Positions 3,261 through 62,625 of a DNA stretch of 64,000 nucleotides are shown piece by piece. The DNA comes from Chondrosia reniformis (lineage: Eukaryota > Porifera > Demospongiae > Chondrillida > Chondrillidae), in assembly GCA_947172415.1 (NCBI GenBank), contig OX359196.1, positions 4,528,501 to 4,592,500 of the forward strand, given 5' to 3'. The first letter of the stretch is position 1. Every line of letters begins with the position of its first letter. A program made the position numbers and the translations under genes. The notes beneath the pieces are model-generated. The model was not told the origin of the DNA. It saw only the letters and a program-made list of their open reading frames with translations, and did not search any database.

Positions 3261-6200
3261 CTAAGCCGGTGTGGAAGAACTAAGTCTTCTTGTCTGCGTT
3301 TCCTCAAGTTGTGTAGTGTAGAAGCCATTGTAGTCCAACCTCCCTATCATGCTGGACATGTAGTGCTCACAGTGCTTGGTTGATAAAACATTTAGCAGAT
3401 CTAGAAGTTGCACAAGAGAAGAGGAAAACTCCCTATCCAAGGAGAGCAGGGTGGCATCCAAGTTGACATGGCTGACTTCTACTATCCTCTTAATTTCCTT
3501 TGTCTCCTCATCGTCAGCTGTGGAGATGTCTACGGCATAGAAATAAGCTTAGGTGATTGACATTGCACAGTTCAAAATACTAGCAACCCTGTATCAGGAA
3601 TTCAATGCATGTGTCTGAAGAATGTGAGATTACAAGTTTTGCCTGCATCCACATTTTTGACGCAGATTGATTTGAAACCTCAGTAATTCCGTATGCTAGT
3701 CCTTGTACATTAAGCTTCATCTCACATTCTTTTAACCAGTGCTTACTTATGCCTGTAAACAATGAATCTATTACCCTTGCATTTAATTCCTGCATACGGT
3801 ATTTAAAATTGCAACAATATATATTCAAAGTCCAACTACGGATGTACATATATGTATGTATTCAATACTATATGACTCATGGAAATATTCACAAACATGA
3901 TGTACAGACCCCGACTCTCTTTAAAGTGTATACATGTATAAGAACATTCAAATACACATCTCAAACCTGCAGAAGATTCCCTGGAGCTGGGGGGCGTGGC
4001 ATGATGCAGCAGGATAGTTGAGAAGGTCAGGCAGAGAGTCAGTATTCTGCTGACGATTCTCAGCACCTCAGAGTTGGTGAGCATGCAGTCCTTCAGACAG
4101 CGGTCCAAGAAGTCGTTGTGTTCCTGTAACACCACATCGATAGTGATGGCTTCTCGAAGCTTTTGTTCCATCATACACCAGTTTGGCTCCAATACCTCAA
4201 ACGTCATGTAGTACTGGTAGTTCTGTACAAAGTTCAGCATTCTCTGTCTCAGGGAGAAGGCTATTGTGGACCTGCATTGCAACAAAGAATCCATTAGACT
4301 TATTAATAGCATTAAATATGTTCTAGTATCTTCACAATTATCTCATTGGTTGAACGTATTACCGTAATCTTTAAACTGGTTTGATATGGAGCAACATTTC
4401 AAACCACAAATAAAAGGCAGTAAACGTACTACAGGCCATTGTTACACACATGGAGAGTCAAACCAGAGCAAAGTCCTGTGAACCCTAGCTGGTTTCAAAA
4501 AAGCATTACTGGTTGAAGAGGTTCATTTCACTATTGATTTTCCATAATCCCATCTGCAAGGTAGCTAAATGGCAAATGTAATTGCACAGACTCACCCAAC
4601 TTGGCTGATGGGGACCTTGAGTGCCTTCTGGTTGAGCCAGACCCTCCCTAGCTGCTGCTCAATGTACCTACAGTAGAAGATATGCCTGAACAGCAGCTGA
4701 TACTTGGTCAGTGTCTTCCGACTGATCACCAAGGAGACTGGCCACTCCACTGAGTAGTCCAGTGTGAAGGATCGCAGGCCAGGGAGCTTTGTTTCCTTGG
4801 GTCTTGTGACTGGCGCTGGCTTTGTGGAGAGCGAGGGGCCAGCACCAATGATTTCTGGCTCAATTGAGAGGATAAGAAACAACTGGGTCACCAGGTCGTA
4901 AGGGATGAGACAGATCTTTAGGTTGTCTCTATATGGATCTGAGGCAAGGGTGCTGGATCTGATGGCCAGGTCAAGCAGGGACTCCAGAAGTCCGAGGGAG
5001 ATGTCTTGATTGTTCTTTTGAAGCTCACTCTCAGCCATGTCCATAAAGTGAACAAGAACATCAGCTTGGTCAAGCAGGAAGAAATGCTTCAAGGAGATTA
5101 ATCGGCCAATTATGTCTTTCTCTTTAATGAGGAGATCAATCAACAAACGGCTCGAATGCTGACAAGCCTGATCAATCTGATCAATATATTTGCGATCATT
5201 AAGTGAATAAACCAACTCTTCTGCATTGGGAACGTTTAATTCTAAGCCACATTCCTTGATCACATTTAGATATTTTCCCGTGTGAAGTATCTTCTCGGCA
5301 ACCTTTTCCATGAAGCTGGGTATCATTTCACTGTGGATTGTGTAGCGTTCTTCCCAGTAGGAATCATTGTACACATCCGTCAGGCGATTCTTTTGCAAGT
5401 GCTTGTTATCATGCACCATGAATTCCTTATATGGATCAGACACTGTGCCTTGGTAAATCCAAAGTTGGATCATCTCTAGAAAGGGCACACAGGCAGCCTG
5501 TGTCAGATGCACACAAAGGTCCTGTGCTTTCTTATCGCCTGCCATCCCCATGGCTTTTGTGTGCAGTATGGATAAAATGGCTCCTCCATGACAGCCAGCT
5601 TGCTCTATGGAGAGGGCTATGGAGCTGAGGATATCCATCATTTTGGAGCAGGGCTGTACATAGTGCCACAGCTTGAGAATTGATAGCTGATTGATGTGGG
5701 CTTGCTGCTCCAGCTGAGCTACCAGTATGAGGTATTCCTTCCTGATAGTGTGCATGGCAGCGCAGAGAGCCTGGCTCACCATCCCGTGCTCAAGCTTAGA
5801 GTACTCATCCATAAACTGGGAGACTATGGAGAAGTTGGAGCAGTGAGGCAGAATCCTCATTACTAAGGACTGTAGAGAGGGGTCCAAACTCTTATCTAAA
5901 GAGAATGATCTTGCCTCCATTTTGTCCTTGAGTGGTTTAACTGAAATATACTTCCCCTCAACTCCTACAAGTAGAAAGAGCAGGTCCTGTACGATGGCCA
6001 CCTCTTGTGCTGCTACTGGTAGACTACCTAATGGAACAGGCTGCTTTGAGTGGGGAATACTGGGGCCAAAATCAAGCAACAAGTGTCTCCTTGTCTCCAC
6101 CCACTTTGGGATTGTTGGGATATTGCCTTCCTCGGACCTTCCCCTGCTCCGTCTCTTCTCCTCCCTCTCATTGGCTGTTCTTGTAAAGGACTCAATTCTC

Positions 6201-51261: not shown

Positions 51262-54200
51262 ATGGGCTCCTTCGCAAGGAAGAGGGTACTTGTAGCTATG
51301 TCTGGAGGAGTTGACTCTACATTGGCAGCTTTCTTGCTAAAGAGAAGAGGTGAGACGATCTTTAAAGTTCCCCGTAATACTTGCTAGACGCTTTATGGAC
51401 TATATTTTTTTGATTTTAAATACTTTTATAAATAACTAATTATAAATTAATAAATATTTCGGGTAGCTGTAAGTACTTTCGGTGTACGCGTGTCTCTCTC
51501 TGTCAATAGCTATTATAGCTGCATAGTTCATTCCTCGAGTCCTTTTAATATCATCTGTTGCATTATTATATTGTTCGTGTTTTTATATTTCTAAAAGGTG
51601 CTTCAGGTACAGTATATCTGTGTGTGCAGGTTTTCAAGTGGAAGGTGTACATATGGTAAACTGGGATACACTGGAGGAGAGCAGTCAGTGTACTTCTGAT
51701 ACTGACTTCTCTCTGGTGCAATCCGTTTGCTCAAAGTTAAAGATTCCATGTCATAAAGTCAACTTTATCAAAGAGTATTGGAATGAAGTCTTTAGGTAGA
51801 ATGAATGAGTTCATAGTAATGTATATGTTTATACTTTATGTACTAGGCCAATGTGAATATCTCTTTATGTTAATCTATATTTGGATGCATAGACATCATA
51901 TGTTATTCACAGTCTATCTTTTGGAAGGTATATCCTTTAACTTTTGAGCATCTGAAAATGGCATAGCAGTGATGAAGACCCTTTGGGCCAAATGTTCGAT
52001 CAAAAGATTTAAATGCAAGGGTTACCTTAAAATCAGTTTTTTTCACTGTCTGATGTACCCTGCTAAATAATAATGAAAGACATATACTAATAATTCTGTC
52101 AAATCATGCATTTTAAGAAACACTCACAGAGGCAAAGAATGTACCATCCACAAAATACATATGATGTAGACGTAGTTAGGAGGAATCCTTACATCACAGT
52201 TTGTTTATATGTAAATACACTGATGCAGTGATATGTTGGAGCAGTATCAACTTGGCTTTACACCTAACCCTGACATCTTGTGTAACGAAAGAATAAAGTT
52301 TAGAGCTCTTCTGAGATATGTACACTATAGTGGTGCTGATTATATGGCTACTGGACATTACGCAAGACTCTCTTGTAACAAAGACGGTGAGAATATGAGA
52401 ATACGTATATAGGTGCATACCAGATATACATTGGCTAGCTTCATATGTGATCTTGTTTGAATACACCAACTAATGCAGTGAAAGTTTCTATGCACAATGT
52501 CAAATCTCAAGTCTTAAGAGTCTGTACTTCTGTAAGAACTTGACATTACAATTAGGTTGTATTTTTAGTGTCTGAAAAGTATAAAAACTGAAATCATTCA
52601 TGTGATATATAAAGTTAATTAGTAGGAATTTTCAATTCTGTATTAAATTTCTCATCTTAATGCTGCACAATAATATTATACAGATACTGTACATACATGT
52701 ACATGTACATTGATTCCATACAATATCAACCTATATACAATATCTACATACATATGTACATGTCAGAGAGATAGCAATGGATTTGTGTAAGACTTATTGT
52801 CTACTTACCTAGCTTTAATGTGCCCCCAATAAATAAAGTTTATTCTTATAATTTCATATACATATTCCATATCCCATAGGAAAAGTGCAGCTTCTCCAAG
52901 CAGTTGACAAGAACAAGGATCAGACATATTTCTTGTCAAGATTATCACAATCTCAGCTTGTTTCAGCTTTGTTTCCAATTGGTGATATGAGAAAGTCGGA
53001 AGTGAGGGCCTTAGTTAGGGAGTTGGGGTTCACAAAGGTTGCAGAGAGGCCAGAGGTGAAGTTGTTTGAAGAGTGGCTGTAACACTTGTATACAATGGAA
53101 TTACATTTAGAACATGCCCCTGAAATATTAATTGATTTTGATTTACTATTTATCCTGAAAATGGACGCTTCTGATTATCAAGACATTTTGCTTGTTTCTG
53201 AAGTGTATCCATTTTATGAAGTGTCTGCTGTACTTACAATATCTATGGTAAAACTAGTAGTTAGTATTGTTAATATATATGTAGGAGTTGGTGTATATTG
53301 ATACACATAATGTAAAAGTATAGCACCAATATTGTGACTTACTTTGTAACTCCTTTGACTAGTAACAGTGACTAATAATTAGTAGTAGCACTGTGTGATA
53401 GAGTGCATGCAAGGTTGATCTTCTCTTCTTCTGCTCTGTATAGAGCATGGGACTTTGCTTTGTGGGAGCTAGAAAGTTCTCCTCCTTCATTGAGCAATAC
53501 CTTCCTGACAGACCAGGAGAGTTTGTCAATTTGATTAATGGTCAAGTGGAAGGAACTCATAAAGGTATCATAAATCATCTTAGTAATCACTCACACACAT
53601 GTAAACAACAATCACAATAATGATCATATCAAACTATGTACATAGAAGTTTTAACCTAGAATCATCTAAAACACCATCTTTCTGAGCATAAAAATGACAT
53701 ACATAAGTATGAGTAAGGAAACATACGTACATACCAATAGAATAGACTACTTTTCTAATTACTTAAGTAAAGTTTAAAGAGAATGGGTATGAGGATACAG
53801 TTTTCATACCAACTTTTCTTCCTTTCTCGACACTATTACCCTAGCTGCCTAACCCATCCATATCTTACACTGGATTTGGATTTGAGGATCTGCTAGTGTA
53901 TTCACCCTGTTATAATAGCTCTGTAGTGAATTTATACATGTAACATTTAGCTTGGTATAGTATTGAGTCCACTTACTTCCTGCTATCATATAGAGATGAA
54001 TTTAAATGCTATACTATTTATGTATGTGTAGGTGTTCATATGTTTACAATTGGCCAGCGAGCAGCTCTTGGAGGCAAAACTAAACCACTTTATGTCGCTA
54101 AAAAGGATGTAGTTGAAAATAAGATTTATGTTGTAAGTAAACCTTTAGGTTGAAAGTATCACTATTATACCTGCAGGTTGAAGGTATCACTATTATACCT

Positions 54201-55461
54201 GCAGGTTGAAGGTATCACTATTATACCTGCAGGTTGAAGGTATCACTATAATTATACCTTTAGGTTGAAGGTATCACTATTATACCTGCAGGTTGAAGGT
54301 ATCACTATTATACCTGCAGGTTGAAGGTATCACTATTATACCTGCAGGTTGAAGGAAGTGAACATCCTGCATTATACAGTTTGAAGTTGTATCTTACCAA
54401 ACCTAACTGGATTGCCGGAGCTCCTCCCAACAAGCTAACAACTTCAGGTTTCAACTGTCTAGTAAGATTTAGACACAGGCAATCACTCTGTGAGTAGTAC
54501 ATTATTATATTGTTATATTGGATATATATATATATATATTGATGTGGCTCAGTGGCAGAACACTGGTAACCATAACCAGCTGTCCTGGGTTGAATTTCCA
54601 GCTATTGCTGCTTTTGTATTTTCTTTACTTCCTGGTACTTGAGAATGAATACTTGTGGTTTGATTATCACTTTAATTACATCCATGTGTAGACAGGCTAA
54701 TGACTGAAGTGTGTGACTGATTGCATAGAATTGAACTACAATCTCACAGTTCAACCCCCACCCACCATGCAGTAGCTATATACTTTGGTGGCTTTCTGTA
54801 TCCATGGCAAATGGTCATACATGTGTATGTACGTATATACTTAGGGAGTAATTTTAGTTGCGTTCATTATAATAGATAGGTTTATTGGAGCTATCTGCAA
54901 CGAAAATAGAGCTAGATTGAATGTTTCAACCCGTAGGTAGGTCTTCATCGCTGATTATTGCTGATGAAGACCTACAGGTTGAAACATTCAATCTAGCTCA
55001 ATTTTCGTTGTAGATAGCTCCAATAAACTTATCTATAATACATATTTAGATATGTTGCCTACATTGATTGGTTAGACCATAGAGATAATTTGTTTGGGTA
55101 TATTACCATGTTTATATGATAACTGAAATTCACCAACCAATAAGTAGAGTCTCTCGTTCCATTCTGGCTAGTTCCAAGTGACATAACAGAGGTGTCCTCT
55201 GATCAGTTGGAGTTAGTGACCCAGTTTCCCTTATACGCTGCTACACCAGGACAGGTGGGTACTTTAATGATTTTTTATACTATATATACCAAGTATGGTT
55301 GCATACATCCTGAGTGCTTTATCATAACTGTTTACTATCTGTAGCATGTGGTGTTTTATGATGAAGAGGAATGTTTAGGTGGCGCATTAATCTCTAAAAC
55401 TGGACAATGTCTTTTGGATTTAAATAAATCATTGAGTGATTTTGATTATTTTGTAAACTGA
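51262..55461 (+). CDS. TRMU: Mitochondrial tRNA-specific 2-thiouridylase
   Basis: Nine exons at about 51262-51349, 51630-51795, 52230-52386, 52879-53055, 53443-53564, 54033-54133, 54348-54490, 55171-55254 and 55345-55461. The protein is an MnmA/TRMU enzyme: PP-loop SGGVDST for ATP activation, [13 protein letters not shown] with the first catalytic cysteine, [18 protein letters not shown], and MGLCFVG with the second catalytic cysteine. [11 protein letters not shown] belongs to the central domain, and the C-terminal beta barrel includes [20 protein letters not shown]. The enzyme thiolates U34 of tRNA-Lys, -Glu and -Gln (family knowledge). The start is the ATG just before [13 protein letters not shown]; a mitochondrial targeting peptide is short or absent, so location is uncertain. 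Intron 6 carries a minisatellite that duplicates the acceptor, and intron 7 carries a foldback element. Confidence 0.96.
54149..54347 (+). repeat. 28-bp minisatellite that contains the TRMU exon 7 acceptor
   Basis: Seven tandem units (six of 28 bp, one of 31 bp) start GTTGAAGGTATCACTATTAT and end CCTGCAG or CCTTTAG. The last unit abuts exon 7, whose first bases GTTGAAGG equal the start of the unit. Every unit therefore carries a copy of the splice acceptor plus the first eight exon bases, giving eight candidate AG|GTTGAA acceptors spaced 28-31 bp apart. Confidence 0.95.
54541..54640 (+). repeat. tRNA-derived SINE-like element
   Basis: The segment has a strong polymerase III A-box (GTGGCTCAGTGG) and, about 45 bp later, a degenerate B-box (GGGTTGAATTTCC). 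The body and tail resemble the region at 49890-49995. It sits in TRMU intron 7 in the transcribed direction. A complete tRNA cloverleaf is not evident. Confidence 0.55.
54866..55042. mobile_element. Foldback (MITE-like) element, arms about 80 bp
   Basis: Two arms that are reverse complements over about 80 bp, with few mismatches, surround a ~13-bp centre (GCTGATTATTGCT). Key arm pieces are TTTATTGGAGCTATCTGC, AGAGCTAGATTGAATGTTTC and GGTCTTCATC, each repeated in complement on the far side. It lies in TRMU intron 7. Target-site duplication could not be fixed because the edges are AT-rich. Confidence 0.85.
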
Positions 55462-55586: not shown

Positions 55587-58500
55587 ATGGCTTCACAGGG
55601 CGGTGGTCGAGGACGTGCACATAACAGGTCGTCTGATCAATTTCAGAATAGGTCTGGAAACCAGAGGGGGGGCAGAGGGAGAGGTAATCGCGGGGGTAGC
55701 AGATTCATACCCCAGTCTGAAAATCCTTTATCAAATTTACGTCACGAGTTCAAAAATGTTCGGTTATATAAGGTAATTGAAGGGGACAAGGAATTAGGAA
55801 GAGGGAGCTATGGTATTGTGAAGGAAGCAACTTGGCTCGGGGTGTCATGTGCCACAAAAAGGCCTCATGGATTCATTGTAACTGGCGTAGAAGCTGTCGA
55901 GAGCAAACCATTAAAAGATTTCATACGAGAGTGCAAGATTTGGGTTGAATTAAAGCACCCTTATATTGTTCAACTTTATGGCGTGTATTTTGAGGAAGAA
56001 TCTCCGTTACCTGTGCTTGTCATGGAACGAATGGATCTGAGCTTGAGAGCGCTCATTGACAAGACACATGGAAGGGCGGTGCCATTGTGGAAGAAAGCGG
56101 CAGTTTTGCATCACGTTTCTTTAGCTTTAGTGTACCTTCACGGTAGAAACTGCATTCACCGAGACGTCACACCAAATAACGTACTTCTGTGTACTGATTC
56201 CTGGTGTGCCAAGCTTTCAGATTTTGGAGTTGCTCGTATAGTCAGGAAAGATGGCTACAGCACAGCTAGTCAGCAGGTACCAGGGACAGCCGATTTCATG
56301 CCACCAGAAAATATGGAAGAAGGTCCTCGCATAGACCAAAAGGTTACACATGTGACACATGTACAAGTTGCATGGTTGTGCTTGTCTGAATTTAACTCTG
56401 TATACACTCCGTTGCTGGGGCAAGGCAAATTATATTCCACAACTGCTGTATAACTATAATAAGAGGCACTTTGGCCACTGTCTGACCCAGTGGAGAAGAA
56501 GATGAAAGAAGGGAAAAGAAGGAAGAAAAGACTCCTGTATCTTCATCTAAAGCTCTCTTCAGGTTTAGTTCCCCTATAGGCTCTTTTACAGAATAGGCAT
56601 AGCATGTAGGAAAATGGTATCTTAGATTTTTCATGTAGTTATACAATGCGATATCCCACCAATAACTCAGTAAACGTCTAAAAGCTTGTGAAAAGCCTAG
56701 GGGAGGAGTGTATGACTATTATGTATACAATGCTATGCTATACTTGGGTAGGATTTAGTATAAACCAACTACAATTCCTGCAGGATGACAAAGTACTCTC
56801 TGTATACTTTAGGTGGATGTGTTCTCTGTAGGCTGCCTGGCTATTAGCGTGCTTTCCTTTCAATGGCCACATCCAGGACCAGCTAAGAGAGATGGTCGAG
56901 CAGTCACAGAACTTGAGAGACGTAGGAAGTACATTGCTTGTTTCACTGAGGAGGAGAGGAGGCTGTATGAGTCTTTAATTATTCAATGCTTGGAGGATAA
57001 TCCTAAAAATAGACCAAAGATGGCAGATGTAGCAAAAAAGCTTTCAACAATTTGTAAGAGCTTGGATAGATGTAGAGAACCAGAAAATACAAGAGACCAG
57101 GAGGTTTCTGCTCTCCAAAAAGACATTGAATGCCTTCAAATAACCAACAAAGAGTTAAAGGTACAAATATTTTGAATGTATACTACGTGTTGTAGTCTGA
57201 GTTGATGAATCTGGTATTCACATGTAGAAAAAGGCCAAACGCCTATCTGAATTAGAAGAAGAGGCAGCTGATTTGAGGGAGCAAGTTTCAGTAAGTTATT
57301 TTAAAACCATAGATGTAGTATTTTACAGGCAAACAAGTAATTCAGGTTAAACAAATATTCAATTGATATATGGTCAATGGTTGAACAACGGTACGGAACA
57401 CATATATGAGATGAGCGTAACAGGAGTGAGAACAATATAGGGGCAGCCCCTAAAATATGTTGTAAACTGTTTGTCTTGCTAATTGTTTAATTGTATATCT
57501 AGTTGATGAGCAGGTTATTTATTTATTTATATATAGAATAAAGATGAGCTGGTATCTGAATTAGAAGAAGAGGTTGCTGATTTGAGGGAGCAAGTTTCAG
57601 TAAGTTGTTTATTTTACCATAAATGCAGTGCTTTTGCAAAGATGTTGTCCAATCATAAGGAGTGGTTTTTACATATTCCTGCTGTTTGTGGTGCCAGATT
57701 TTATTAAGAGAGAAATGGTAAAGAAAAAGGAATTATACGTATTTGTTGCCTTTAAAGATTTTTGCTACTCAAATTTAGAATTCAAGTATCTATAAAGACA
57801 TTGTCAATTAGAAAGTATGGTTTAGTATAGTTTTAATTAAATAATCATTTAATTTATTAGTTAATAATTATTTAATATACATACTTACAGGTTCCACCAA
57901 AATTATATCTGCAAGCAGAAAGGTTTTACTTTGCAGGGAATACACAGTATATTGCTCTTAAAGTCAGTAAAGCTGTAGGAATTCCAATAACTTCTGAGTA
58001 CGAAGATAGTGGTTATCTGTATGTTACTGCTTACGTGGCCTACCCTGACAATGAATGGACAAGTATTTCTTCAAACTGTGTAAGAAATGGAGAATTTATC
58101 TTTGGAGACTCATTAAAAGTATGTTTAATTTTGTAACAGTAAATAGTTTAGATGTGTGAGTACCTTGGCTTAAAGACATATTAATATCCATTCCTTTTTG
58201 TAAAACAAGATTACTATGTATTAGCGCCTGAATGGCACCACCTTTTATGCAAAGCCAAATAGCTGAAGAATTTTAAAAAGAAACAAAGAAACTTCCAGAG
58301 TCACTGATGAAAGATGAAACTTCCAGGAAGAACTTCTAGCTTGGTGGAGAATGTGGAGAAGAAAGAAAATAAAATGTATCCTCATACTAATTACGGGCAA
58401 TAACAACCTACTAGCATCCCATCTGATACTGTGTTTGTGCCACTGATCCACCCACCCTGCCTCACTGTACTTATGTATGTGTGTATCCATTAATCCATAG

Positions 58501-59455
58501 TAACAACTGCTACATACAGTAAAACTGTATACATACCTTGAACTTTATAGCTAAAAAATCTCAGTGGCGAACAGAATTCATGCTCCCTGTGGTTGAGCAT
58601 TTGGAAAAAAGAAAATTACACGCTATCGTGGGATAACTCCAAGGAGTGTATAGGATCTGTTAAGATTCAAGCACCACTGTATGAAAGTTATTATTACACG
58701 TATATTCTAAAATGTGAAGTGAGTCCAACATATTCATGACACTTGAAAACATACATATACGTAACTAGCATCATACCAATTTTATCAAAGATTAAAAGAT
58801 ACTAAATGAATAATTGTTGACACTCTATCAATGTATTGTAACAGTTACATATCCTGAGAACACTTTACAATTTATAATGTTCAGAAATGTATCATCACTT
58901 TAGGAGTCAGCTATGGAGGAAGCCACTGCAGATGCCAAAAGTCAACTAAAGATGTATGTGTGTCAGTGTGCCAAGGAGAAATGTGGGGTGCATATCTACT
59001 GTTTCGTTAAAGAGGAGGACATTGAGGAGCTCTTCACAGTGATGAGGTTTAAGAGAGCAGATGGAGCGCCAGGTATATGCAGCTATTCCAAGAAAATTGT
59101 TGTACCAGACCATCTGAAATTTAGAGTTTACTATAAGCAGAATGCCAATGCTGAATATTGTACCCAAGGTGCTATTTCAGGAGCCTTAACTGGAGCCGTA
59201 GCCAGTATGAAGTCAGGCGGTGGATTTTGGGGTACTTTGATTGGAGCAGGTGTAGGGTCTTATCTTGGTGGCGGAATAGGACAAGGCATTGCTAGTCAAC
59301 AGCAGAAGGCTGTGGATCAAAATCTTCAGATACACACCATATCAATTGCAGATGTCTGCACATTTGTTAAAAAACATTCTACCCATGAGCTAAACTGGAC
59401 GCTTGAATTAAAATCCCATAGAAAGTCCTTTCATCCTCATGAAGATTATTACTAG
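55587..59455 (+). CDS. RGG-rich N-terminus, protein kinase, coiled coil and glycine-zipper protein
   Basis: Seven exons (55587-56342, 56813-57160, 57228-57290, 57537-57599, 57891-58118, 58551-58718, 58904-59455), all in phase 0, give 725 residues. Residues 1-40 are Arg/Gly-rich. The kinase (about 60-340) has the Gly loop GRGSYGIV, ATK lysine, SPLPVLVMERM, HRDVTPNN, SDFGVAR and a MPPE motif, so ATP-binding and catalytic Asp residues are present; Thr replaces the usual Lys after HRD. A coiled coil follows, made partly by two near-identical 21-codon exons. The rest (about 411 onward) is unrecognised: a beta-like stretch (PKLYLQAERFYF), then a Cys-containing region (CQCAKEKCGVHIYCFVKEED), then a glycine zipper (GAISGALTGAV, then GAGVGSYLGGGIGQGIA). 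HRDxTxNN is, as I recall, usual in a sponge-expanded kinase group. Target and location are unknown. The start is the first in-frame ATG, 125 bp after the TRMU stop. Confidence 0.85.
56455..56610 (-). repeat. Dispersed short repeat, copy 5 (minus strand)
   Basis: In the first intron of the kinase gene. On the minus strand it reads CTACATGCTATGCCTATTCT, then CCTATAGGGGAACTAAACCT, GAGAGCTTTAGATGAAGATA and CCACTGGGTCAGACAGTG. The outer CTACATGCTATGCCTA edge is shared with copy 4. Confidence 0.7.
58255..58390 (-). repeat. Dispersed short repeat, copy 6 (diverged)
   Basis: It has the second half of the family only: TTCATCAGTGACTCTGGAAG and a Cys/Thr-free purine-rich centre, then ATGAGGATACATTTTATTT on the minus strand. 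More diverged than the other copies. Confidence 0.4.
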
Positions 59456-59774: not shown

Positions 59775-60570
59775 ATGGCGATGTCTTACCACGTGTTGTT
59801 TTTGTTAATCTCTTCTGCTTTTTATGAATCAGTTAATGGTGAAGGTTAGTATAGGGCGATAATCAAAATAAAGCATATATATATAATTTGGATTTAGTCT
59901 TGTTATGATGCTAAATTACAAGTTTAACCACTAATGCAGTCACATGAGTTGATATTGAAGGCTTTATACAATATCTGTCACTGAATATTGTCGTTCTAGG
60001 TGCTTGTGAAGTTTATCCTAACACTTATTCGACGTCCGAAGTGATTCTCTCTAAAGAAACGGTTCTTATCACAGAATTCAATCTAAAGTGCTCGGGCGAT
60101 TACGCCAAAGTAGTGAGTGAAGCGAGTATATAACGGTTTGTTGTCTCTTTTAGCCATATCACTGTAAACCTTATTGCCAATCAGGAGTCTTGGTACGCAG
60201 AGTTAAACGGGAGGATAGTAGCGGCTGTTCACGAGCCGGATAGTAGTACTTTTCAGGTAACTGTATCAGATAGTCACGCCTCCTTCCCAGCTGGGACCTA
60301 CCAGTTCAACTTCTACACAGACGATAGTATTGGAGACGTGAGAAAGGTACTTGTTGGAAATATACATATAGATATCGACTTTTAATAGCTGCATCATTGC
60401 AGGTTTTAGCTTAACCAAGTTTTATAGTTAAAGAAAGCTTTGCCTATTTGTCATTAAATGAGTGATCAATGACTTACCGTAAAAGGTACTATTTTTGCCT
60501 CTGTTAGGCTTTACGAAGCGGTGAGCAAGTGGACACCAAGCCAGTCTTTAGCATACCATTAAATCATGGA
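59775..60570 (+). CDS. SSR4: Translocon-associated protein delta (lumenal part; last exon not found)
   Basis: Exons at 59775-59844, 60000-60109, 60154-60346 and 60508-60570. Exon 1 encodes a signal peptide (MAMSYHVLFLLISSAFYESV). Exon 2 gives ACEVYPNTYSTSEVILSKET and TEFNLKC, matching TRAP-delta ([20 protein letters not shown]). Exon 3 includes FPAGTYQFNFYTDD (human AHAGTYEVRFFDEE), and exon 4 gives ALRSGEQVDTKPVFSIPLNH. TRAP-delta is one of four subunits of the ER translocon-associated complex (family knowledge). Exons 2 and 3 do not join in frame by any standard splice pair: exon 2 ends at phase 0 while exon 3 needs phase 2. The 44-bp intron between them is very short. The final exon with the membrane helix was not found before the window ends or before unrelated repeats begin. 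Confidence 0.75.
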
Positions 60571-61207: not shown

Positions 61208-61325
61208 GACTAGTACCACCCGTACCACCCGTACCACCCATAGAACCCGTACCACCTGTACCACCCGTACCACCCGTACCACCCATAGAACCCGTACTAC
61301 CCATACCCCCTGTTCTACCTGTACC
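61208..61325 (+). repeat. 9-bp minisatellite with a longer internal cycle
   Basis: The unit GTACCACCC repeats, interrupted regularly by ATAGAACCC, giving a ~54-bp or 63-bp higher cycle. Three frames are open (Val-Pro-Pro on plus, Val-Val-Arg on minus). The regularity at DNA level and absence of exon context argue against coding. Confidence 0.85.
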
Positions 61326-62625
61326 ATTGTGATTATACATAGCTAGTTATACGACAATTCAATAGAGCCATTTCGAAAGTGTGCAATCTTTCCCACAAAT
61401 TTTTACTATTGCCAAAAAGCATATGTACAACATACTGTTGTAGTCTTTGTATTTTGAATAAAATTAGTTATGCTGGTTAGCTGCAGCACTGTAGATTGCA
61501 CCAAATGATTCAAGAAAGATTCAGGCATAGGTTTCTATGCCTTTCCTGTGGATAAAGAAACACAAAAAGCTTGGATCGGGCGATTTTCTAGAACACACTG
61601 GGAACCAATGTGCAATCTCTCCTGGAAATATTTCTTTGCCTGACTGATATATATATATCATTTTCAGCATGTAAAGTAAAAGCAAGGCTTTTTGTGGAGG
61701 GGGTTCGTTTACTTTTTTTAATGTAGTATCCATACGTATTCCTACATGAATGGAATTTGTATAAATAAAAGAAAGTTTTTAGTAGTTAATGGAGGGTTCA
61801 TCATAGTTCTGTCTTCAGTTTGTCTTTTATGGTAAACATTTCGTTGGTGGAAGACCTTCTAATGACCCTAAGCACATAAATCACATTCCTACCATCTTTG
61901 TCAATAAGAAGAGAAGGATTAATATTCAATGAGGATAGGGAAGCAAAAAGAACCAAAAGGGTGAAAACACAAAAAGATACAGAAGACCTACTTGTAGCTG
62001 TCAAAGGTTTACTTGATTTGAGTTGTGTTTCTAACAAAGAGTCAGTTATCATCATCATCATTTTATTTTACAGCAGGAATTTCTGCATCTGCAAAACTGC
62101 AGCTTTTCATGCAGGCCCTGATTTACATAATAATACAAAAATGTGACATAGTTTACAGTATCTGTTGATTCAGTTATGTGTCAAAGATTTTGTCAATAGC
62201 AGAAATCAGAAATCATTGTTGATCAGTTCAGTTACTGAGACTGAGGTGAGTGCGTAGAACCTCACAAAAGGCTGAATCTGTACTCAAGGATTTTAGTTGA
62301 TTTGACTGGTTGTTGTATAGTTTGGCTTCAGAGTACTCAAAGGAAGACTTGTACAGGTTGGTATGTGGTGGATTTAGATGAAGATTGTTCGCCCCACGGG
62401 GAGAGGTGTATGTGGTGAAGTTGGAAGCCCTAGTTGTGAATTTGCTGTATAGGTAATCAGGGGCGTGTCTGCTTAGGCACCTCCTGACTTGCAGTATCAA
62501 AGCTAATTCTAGGTGAACTGTCCCTGTTTTAACTCAATCAGACATGAGTTATTTAGTAAAGAACAGGAGTTATCCATAAAAACGTCACATCTTTAGAGGA
62601 AAAAATTGTTCGCCTGAATTATGGT
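61326..62625. other. No recognised gene
   Basis: A minus-strand exon-like piece at about 61801-62037 follows GTTAG and ends in TAA with a short hydrophobic run, but resembles nothing I know. The rest is AT-rich with short frames. Confidence 0.35.

Follow-up and report, generated by a model that had tools for sequence, protein, structure and literature searches.

A window of 64,000 nucleotides from the sponge Chondrosia reniformis (assembly GCA_947172415.1, contig OX359196.1; contig 8, positions 4528501-4592500) contains a gene whose predicted product begins with an arginine/glycine (RG)-rich head, continues through a protein kinase domain and a coiled coil, and ends in a tail made up of a putative C2-like domain and a terminal domain that holds a glycine zipper. 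The gene was analysed against the whole assembly, which comprises 117,379,552 bases in 15 contigs. A model built from splice sites and reading frame gave a spliced product of 725 amino acids from seven exons with no internal stop, and all six introns have GT-AG borders and are in phase 0. The features of the gene, in window coordinates, are as follows.

55587..56342, plus strand: exon 1, residues 1-252; RG-rich head (residues 1 to about 41) and the kinase from the N-lobe to the activation segment (splice model, RG counts, Pfam)
56157..56180, plus strand: catalytic loop HRDVTPNN, residues 191-198
56813..57160, plus strand: exon 2, residues 253-368; kinase C-lobe and start of the coiled coil (splice model, Pfam)
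57228..57290, plus strand: exon 3, residues 369-389; coiled-coil unit of 21 residues, three heptads (splice model, repeat analysis)
57537..57599, plus strand: exon 4, residues 390-410; duplicate of exon 3
57891..58118, plus strand: exon 5, residues 411-486; putative first half of a divergent C2-like domain (gene layout only)
58551..58718, plus strand: exon 6, residues 487-542; putative second half of the C2-like domain (similarity to the C2b exon of a gene on contig 7, and intron place)
58904..59455, plus strand: exon 7, residues 543-725 and stop; unnamed terminal domain with a glycine-zipper insert (homology to the last exon of the contig-7 gene)
59162..59299, plus strand: glycine zipper, residues 629-674; not in the contig-7 relative

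The whole arrangement is real and unusual, and it was found once in the assembly, inside a common sponge kinase expansion. The order of parts given in the original prediction (an Arg/Gly head, a kinase, a coiled coil and a tail of ~315 residues with a glycine zipper) was upheld by the seven-exon model together with motif and Pfam analysis. Splice sites were picked for frame; at exon 6, for example, the acceptor before 58551 is in frame and the one before 58565 is out of frame. The joint between exons 4 and 5 was set by splice sites and frame only, which leaves some room for a gene-model artefact, in which the kinase with its coiled coil and the C2-like/zipper tail would be two genes or alternative transcripts. 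Such a division, named in advance as one outcome that would overturn the prediction, looks improbable, because methionine is absent from residues 322 to 546 of the spliced protein, so that exons 5 and 6 need an upstream coding exon to start a protein, and because the contig-7 gene repeats the layout of the terminal exons, with this module again at the end.

The head of the protein is Arg/Gly-rich as predicted (11 Gly, 9 Arg and five RG dipeptides in residues 1-45), and it is more exactly called RG-rich than RGG-rich, since the RGG triplet occurs only twice. The kinase domain that follows was matched far over the cut-offs and at near-equal scores by the Pfam models for Tyr/Ser-Thr kinases (PK_Tyr_Ser-Thr, E = 9e-37, 127.2 bits) and Ser/Thr kinases (Pkinase, E = 1.5e-36, 126.6 bits), and the matches listed from the PDB (60 of 1044 chains) were likewise mixed, with Src/Abl/SYK, Nek7 and PknB among them. 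Kinase-type models of PADLOC also matched the kinase (25 of 35 listed; best mad6, E = 2.4e-54), and exon 7 was without any PADLOC match. Active eukaryotic protein kinases carry a Gly loop, a VAIK-type Lys, an alpha-C Glu, the HRD Asp with its following Asn, and the DFG Asp. In the window kinase this set is complete (GRGSYG at 71, K91, E115, D193, N198 and D212), with the loop HRDVTPNN that had been predicted; judged by these residues, the kinase is apparently a working enzyme.

Use of the kinase (residues 1-337) as a query against the whole assembly returned at least 120 matching places, a lower bound reached with 119 of 335 first-look candidates scored; places are not genes, and two of the 120 are exons of the window gene itself. 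Thirty loci (L005-L034) were cut out with short flanks only, from which longer C-termini may escape; since two belong to the window gene, 28 others remain, with kinase-domain identities to it of 36-42%, and further matches listed reached up to 50% over single exons. The catalytic-loop pattern was found in frames of 29 of the 30 loci (L012 being without it), which, minus the two of the window gene, gives 27 relatives. All 27 share the theme H[RH]D[LV][ST]xxN, as HHDLSPNN (18), HRDLTPNN (5), or HRDLTANN, HHDLSPSN, HHDLTPNN and HHDLTTNN (one each). A heptad score of at least 0.8 after the kinase was seen in 15 of the 27, compared with 1.03 for the window coiled coil and 0.61 for exon 7 as a control, by a crude and uncalibrated measure; RG dipeptides before the kinase numbered two or fewer in each of the 27, counted in the same open frame only, compared with five in the window gene. 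Five more relatives (L072-L076) were seen by eye to have heptad-rich frames after the kinase. In two of these (L074 and L076) the frames start or resume at VDVFS, as at the intron by exon 2 of the window gene, marking a candidate intron by eye; in the other three, reading continues across that position.

The C-termini of these relatives vary. Among five frames scanned, NHL repeats were found in L007 and L022, ankyrin repeats in L033 and the start of a Ras-like domain in L018, and the frame of L074 gave weak matches only, all below the cut-off. Frames of L005-L034 outside the window gene gave no sign of the C2-like/exon-7 tail, and neither did L072-L076, which were inspected for it by eye only; an assembly search recovered it from the window and contig 7 and from nowhere else. 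Altogether, a kinase and coiled coil with a varying C-terminus is common in this genome, and the description of the gene as unlike any animal kinase was not supported.

Several of the relatives have features of their own. HHD replaces HRD in 21 of the 27, the window kinase being a plain HRD kinase, and non-RD kinases in such number in a sponge may merit separate study. In L018 (1258-2373, minus strand) the kinase frame leads directly into the beginning of a Ras-like GTPase, for which the Ras model was over its cut-off (E = 9.9e-5) and the Roc model under its own (E = 2.9e-5); in L025 a kinase frame likewise runs directly into the start of a Ras-like GTPase, as seen by eye. The L074 frame (3884-5167, minus strand) is without the usual loop motif, has a long internal Ser/Glu/Pro/Lys repeat and is possibly a pseudokinase.

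The coiled coil of the window protein lies at about residues 341-410 and is rich in Leu and Val at the a and d heptad positions. Exons 3 and 4, which supply part of it, are duplicates identical at 52 of 63 bases, and each encodes exactly three heptads (21 residues).

Exon 7 encodes the terminal domain, in which a stretch of 46 residues (629-674) holds 15 Gly, with six Gly in one spacing-four run and eight G-xxx-G pairs. The repeated (G/A/S)xxxGxxxG pattern that characterises glycine-zipper domains is present in this stretch. When the whole exon was shuffled 20000 times, one shuffle gave a run of six and none gave eight pairs; when the composition of the 46 residues was kept, the run occurred in 212 and the eight pairs in 285 of 20000 shuffles. 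These data indicate that the enrichment in Gly is clear and that its spacing departs from random at a level of about 1%, in support of the zipper that had been predicted. Profile matches to the zipper were below curated cut-offs, including NCBIfam YiaD_Gzip_OmpA (E = 2.8e-7, 30.5 bits against a cut-off of 175) and the Pfam YMGG zipper (E = 0.0024 with exon 7 alone and 0.013 with the whole protein), the Pfam score being 18.0 bits against 28.9. The Pfam Gly-zipper_Omp model found eight places in the assembly, with the window second at E = 0.031, not over the cut-off.

Outside the zipper, the exon-7 domain is without a recognised family by sequence comparison. Searches of PDB sequences that used the tail or a two-row alignment as query returned nothing below E = 0.97, and no relatives of exon 7 were confirmed in prokaryote genomes or viral contigs, in scans that reach close relatives only. 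Assignment of exon 7 to the C19orf12 family was considered and rejected at 18.0 bits against a cut-off of 30, the sole place over the cut-off in the assembly being on contig 10. A retained intron was also considered as the source of the zipper and is unlikely, given a guanine-plus-cytosine content of 0.50 compared with 0.26-0.39 in the six introns; the only donor-like site in exon 7 (pattern GT[AG]A[GT]) is at 59039, upstream of the zipper. Among the papers found on glycine zippers and kinase domains, judged by titles and abstract beginnings, none describes a fusion of a soluble kinase with a glycine-zipper stretch. Elsewhere in the assembly, a short frame in L078 (1435-1659, minus strand) has a highly regular glycine repeat that leads into a strongly hydrophobic segment.

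Exon-by-exon searches of the assembly with the tail found a single relative, on contig 7; exons 5 and 6 as the sole query recovered only themselves.

Contig 7, 5078888-5084465, minus strand: relative of the window tail, probably CARD-headed (L036 3339-3666 to L035 7889-8227)
Contig 7, 5079226-5078888, minus strand: last exon, homologous to exon 7, without the zipper

Exon 7 and the contig-7 last exon matched in a one-to-one phmmer comparison at E = 1.2e-11, with a local alignment z of 16.4 and a score reached by none of 1000 shuffles. The zipper is a gap in this alignment, and because its ends adjoin in the zipperless copy, the inserted chain should leave and re-enter at one point, much as a hairpin does. 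Gain and loss of the zipper cannot be told apart from two sequences. Since the domain can exist without the zipper, the alternative raised by the original prediction, a Gly-rich surface loop in a known soluble domain, is half borne out.

Upstream of the contig-7 last exon lie exons of 153 and 213 bases, which are in phase 0, as are window exons 6 and 5, so that a layout of three phase-0 terminal exons is common to both genes. Joined, the two contig-7 exons match the full Pfam C2 model at 22.8 bits against a cut-off of 22 (E = 1.1e-4); inside a longer query the score was 20.6 bits, under the cut-off. A profile of this genome's C2 domains matched them at E = 3e-4 with a probability of 39%, and the best match in PDB sequences, a Piccolo C2 at E = 0.015, was not significant. 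The intron within the C2 region falls at the identical place in both genes, exactly 12 residues before LW[LV]S[IV]W, and the score of exon 6 against the contig-7 C2b exon was reached by 9 of 5000 shuffles in local and 27 of 5000 in global alignment. Exons 5 and 6 are therefore called C2-like, indirectly and not as a C2 domain, because they give no match to a C2 model and yet gene layout and partial homology fit. The part of the tail that was first described as unrecognised is accordingly reduced to the exon-7 domain; NCBIfam gave nothing for exons 5-6 or for the contig-7 last exon.

Further upstream in the contig-7 gene, a CARD is encoded, on a Pfam match under the cut-off (E = 2.5e-4, 21.5 bits against 23.9), by an exon that has its own ATG, and this exon is probably in the same transcript as the tail, as frames and splice sites allow. 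The 309-residue frame in the middle gave one weak Pfam match, below the cut-off (CLIP_1, E = 0.21), and a possible TRADD-N-like stretch was noted there by eye only, with no model match found.

Taken together, the exon layout, the kinase motifs, the duplicated coiled-coil exons, the homology of exon 7 and a zipper in one copy only make up the anatomy of this gene. The function that we favour, at a little less than even confidence, is that of a soluble kinase that assembles through its coiled coil and that the C2-like/zipper tail brings to membranes. The coiled coil would make dimers or higher oligomers, in which the kinase would phosphorylate itself in trans. C2 folds often bind membranes, and the C2-like domain would recruit the protein to one; the zipper would form an alpha hairpin that either dips into the membrane or packs against neighbours in the oligomer, anchoring the kinase. 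Such a protein would act as a signalling kinase recruited to membranes, for which pore formation is not required. A role in an innate-immune or cell-death network is plausible because the module is shared with the probable CARD gene. The possible membrane role that had been proposed from the architecture gains from the C2 domain of the zipperless relative and from the adjacent-ended zipper insert, a layout resembling that modelled for C19orf12 in PMC4470416.

A number of results weigh against a membrane-recruited kinase. The zipper appears too polar for a permanent membrane span and below membrane-level hydrophobicity, with a maximum 19-residue Kyte-Doolittle value of 1.06, compared with 1.72 for the genome's C19orf12 relative and 1.39 for a core stretch of the protein's own kinase. 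AlphaFold2 modelled helices at 630-646 and 650-663 when given the zipper with its flanks (predicted local distance difference test, pLDDT, 42.7), and the first zipper helix only when given the whole of exon 7 (pLDDT 39.3); both models are unreliable (pLDDT <43) and too poor for a fold search. Direct identification of exons 5-6 as a C2 domain failed by every route taken: Pfam gave no C2 match up to E = 10, an assembly-wide C2 search with 66 places included neither the window exons nor the single contig-7 exons, and hhalign against the genome's C2 profile scored 13.05, a value that shuffles also reached (best of 100, 15.02). The similarity of exon 5 to the contig-7 C2a exon was not significant, and neither was a phmmer comparison of the C2 parts of the two genes, whose whole-domain alignment scores were reached by 8 of 1000 and 3 of 1000 shuffles. 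The suggested link to immunity depends on a single shared module and a single CARD match that falls under its threshold.

Several of these results fit another explanation, in which the zipper would serve packing or oligomerisation in soluble form (as a core or inter-subunit helix pair) and the C2-like domain would be a protein-protein module, making the protein a cytosolic scaffolded kinase that plays no part at membranes. The low hydropathy of the zipper, under that of the genome's C19orf12 relative, the zipperless copy on contig 7 and the failure to detect a C2 domain directly in the window copy all speak for it; however, the models that respond to the zipper, all below cut-off, are by name mostly those of membrane or envelope proteins. 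We consider this a serious alternative of lower probability than membrane recruitment. An MLKL-like executioner, in which kinase activation would free the tail and coiled-coil oligomers would insert zipper hairpins and permeabilise membranes, is improbable. A kinase, a coiled coil and a possible hairpin do occur in a single chain, and the module is common to a gene that probably has a CARD; against this stand the complete catalytic set, differing from MLKL, which is described as a pseudokinase, the same low hydropathy, and the absence of an MLKL-named match among the Pfam matches listed (25 of 44 with the full protein as query, and every match with the two tail pieces), in PDB searches of the tail and among the 60 of 1044 kinase chains listed. 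Equally doubtful is a related form, in which kinase autophosphorylation and coiled-coil assembly would expose the zipper hairpin, and the enzyme itself would enter and alter membranes, an MLKL-like outcome from unrelated parts.

The genes flanking the kinase gene are housekeeping genes. A tRNA 2-thiouridylase-type gene lies upstream (window 52224-53082; Pfam tRNA_Me_trans, in two pieces), and the downstream neighbour is TRAP-delta (window 59948-60340, in two pieces). Tandem arrays are present at window 54134-54355 (28-base unit, 7.4 copies) and 61213-61326 (9/45-base unit), and an inverted repeat at 54880-55040, seen by eye, is probably a small mobile element.

The interest of the locus lies in one C-terminal module that occurs in two contexts, at the end of a probable CARD gene and after a kinase; between the two, the zipper stretch was either gained or lost. 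Should the tail bind membranes, the two genes would form a natural pair in which to test the effect of a glycine-zipper insert on a signalling protein. Sponge genomes show large-scale recombination of immune and signalling domains, and PMC8195603 reports that Amphimedon has 357 TRADD-N proteins, of which as many as half have a unique architecture, with C-termini that often evolve fast and that include kinases. The link to the probable CARD gene fits this shuffling of Death-like domains and variable C-termini.

Among known systems, MLKL, to which the protein had been loosely compared, is described as a pseudokinase whose four-helix executioner is N-terminal. The likeness is one of analogy, in that a kinase fold, a helical or coiled region and a possible membrane-acting part occur together, and the order of parts is the sole positive support for a possible MLKL-like killing role. 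The window kinase, in contrast, keeps its catalytic residues and is thus unlike a pseudokinase; its tail is C-terminal and different, its zipper looks too polar for a permanent membrane span, and its N-terminus is RG-rich, with no four-helix executioner at residues 1 to about 60 (RG-rich, then kinase) and no family there among 25 of 44 Pfam matches listed, so that the comparison is weak. C19orf12 is closer in the layout of its zipper: in PMC4470416 it is a 17 kDa protein, described without a kinase, in which a glycine zipper lies between soluble flanks predicted to fold as one domain and the zipper helices are modelled as membrane-spanning. The window zipper is also an insert with adjacent ends, and the Pfam C19orf12 model weakly matches exon 7, below its cut-off (E = 0.0026); the window zipper is less hydropathic than that of the genome's C19orf12 relative, however, and the window protein has a kinase. 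The contig-7 gene is like the window gene in its C2 and exon-7 module, its three phase-0 terminal exons and its C2 intron place, and differs in having a CARD and other frames (part read) where the window gene has a kinase, and in the absence of the glycine zipper. Many of the kinase/coiled-coil relatives in the same genome are like the window protein in the kinase, the catalytic loop and the heptad-rich stretch, whereas the RG-rich head (compared within the same open frame) and the C2-like/exon-7 tail are features by which the window protein stands apart from them.

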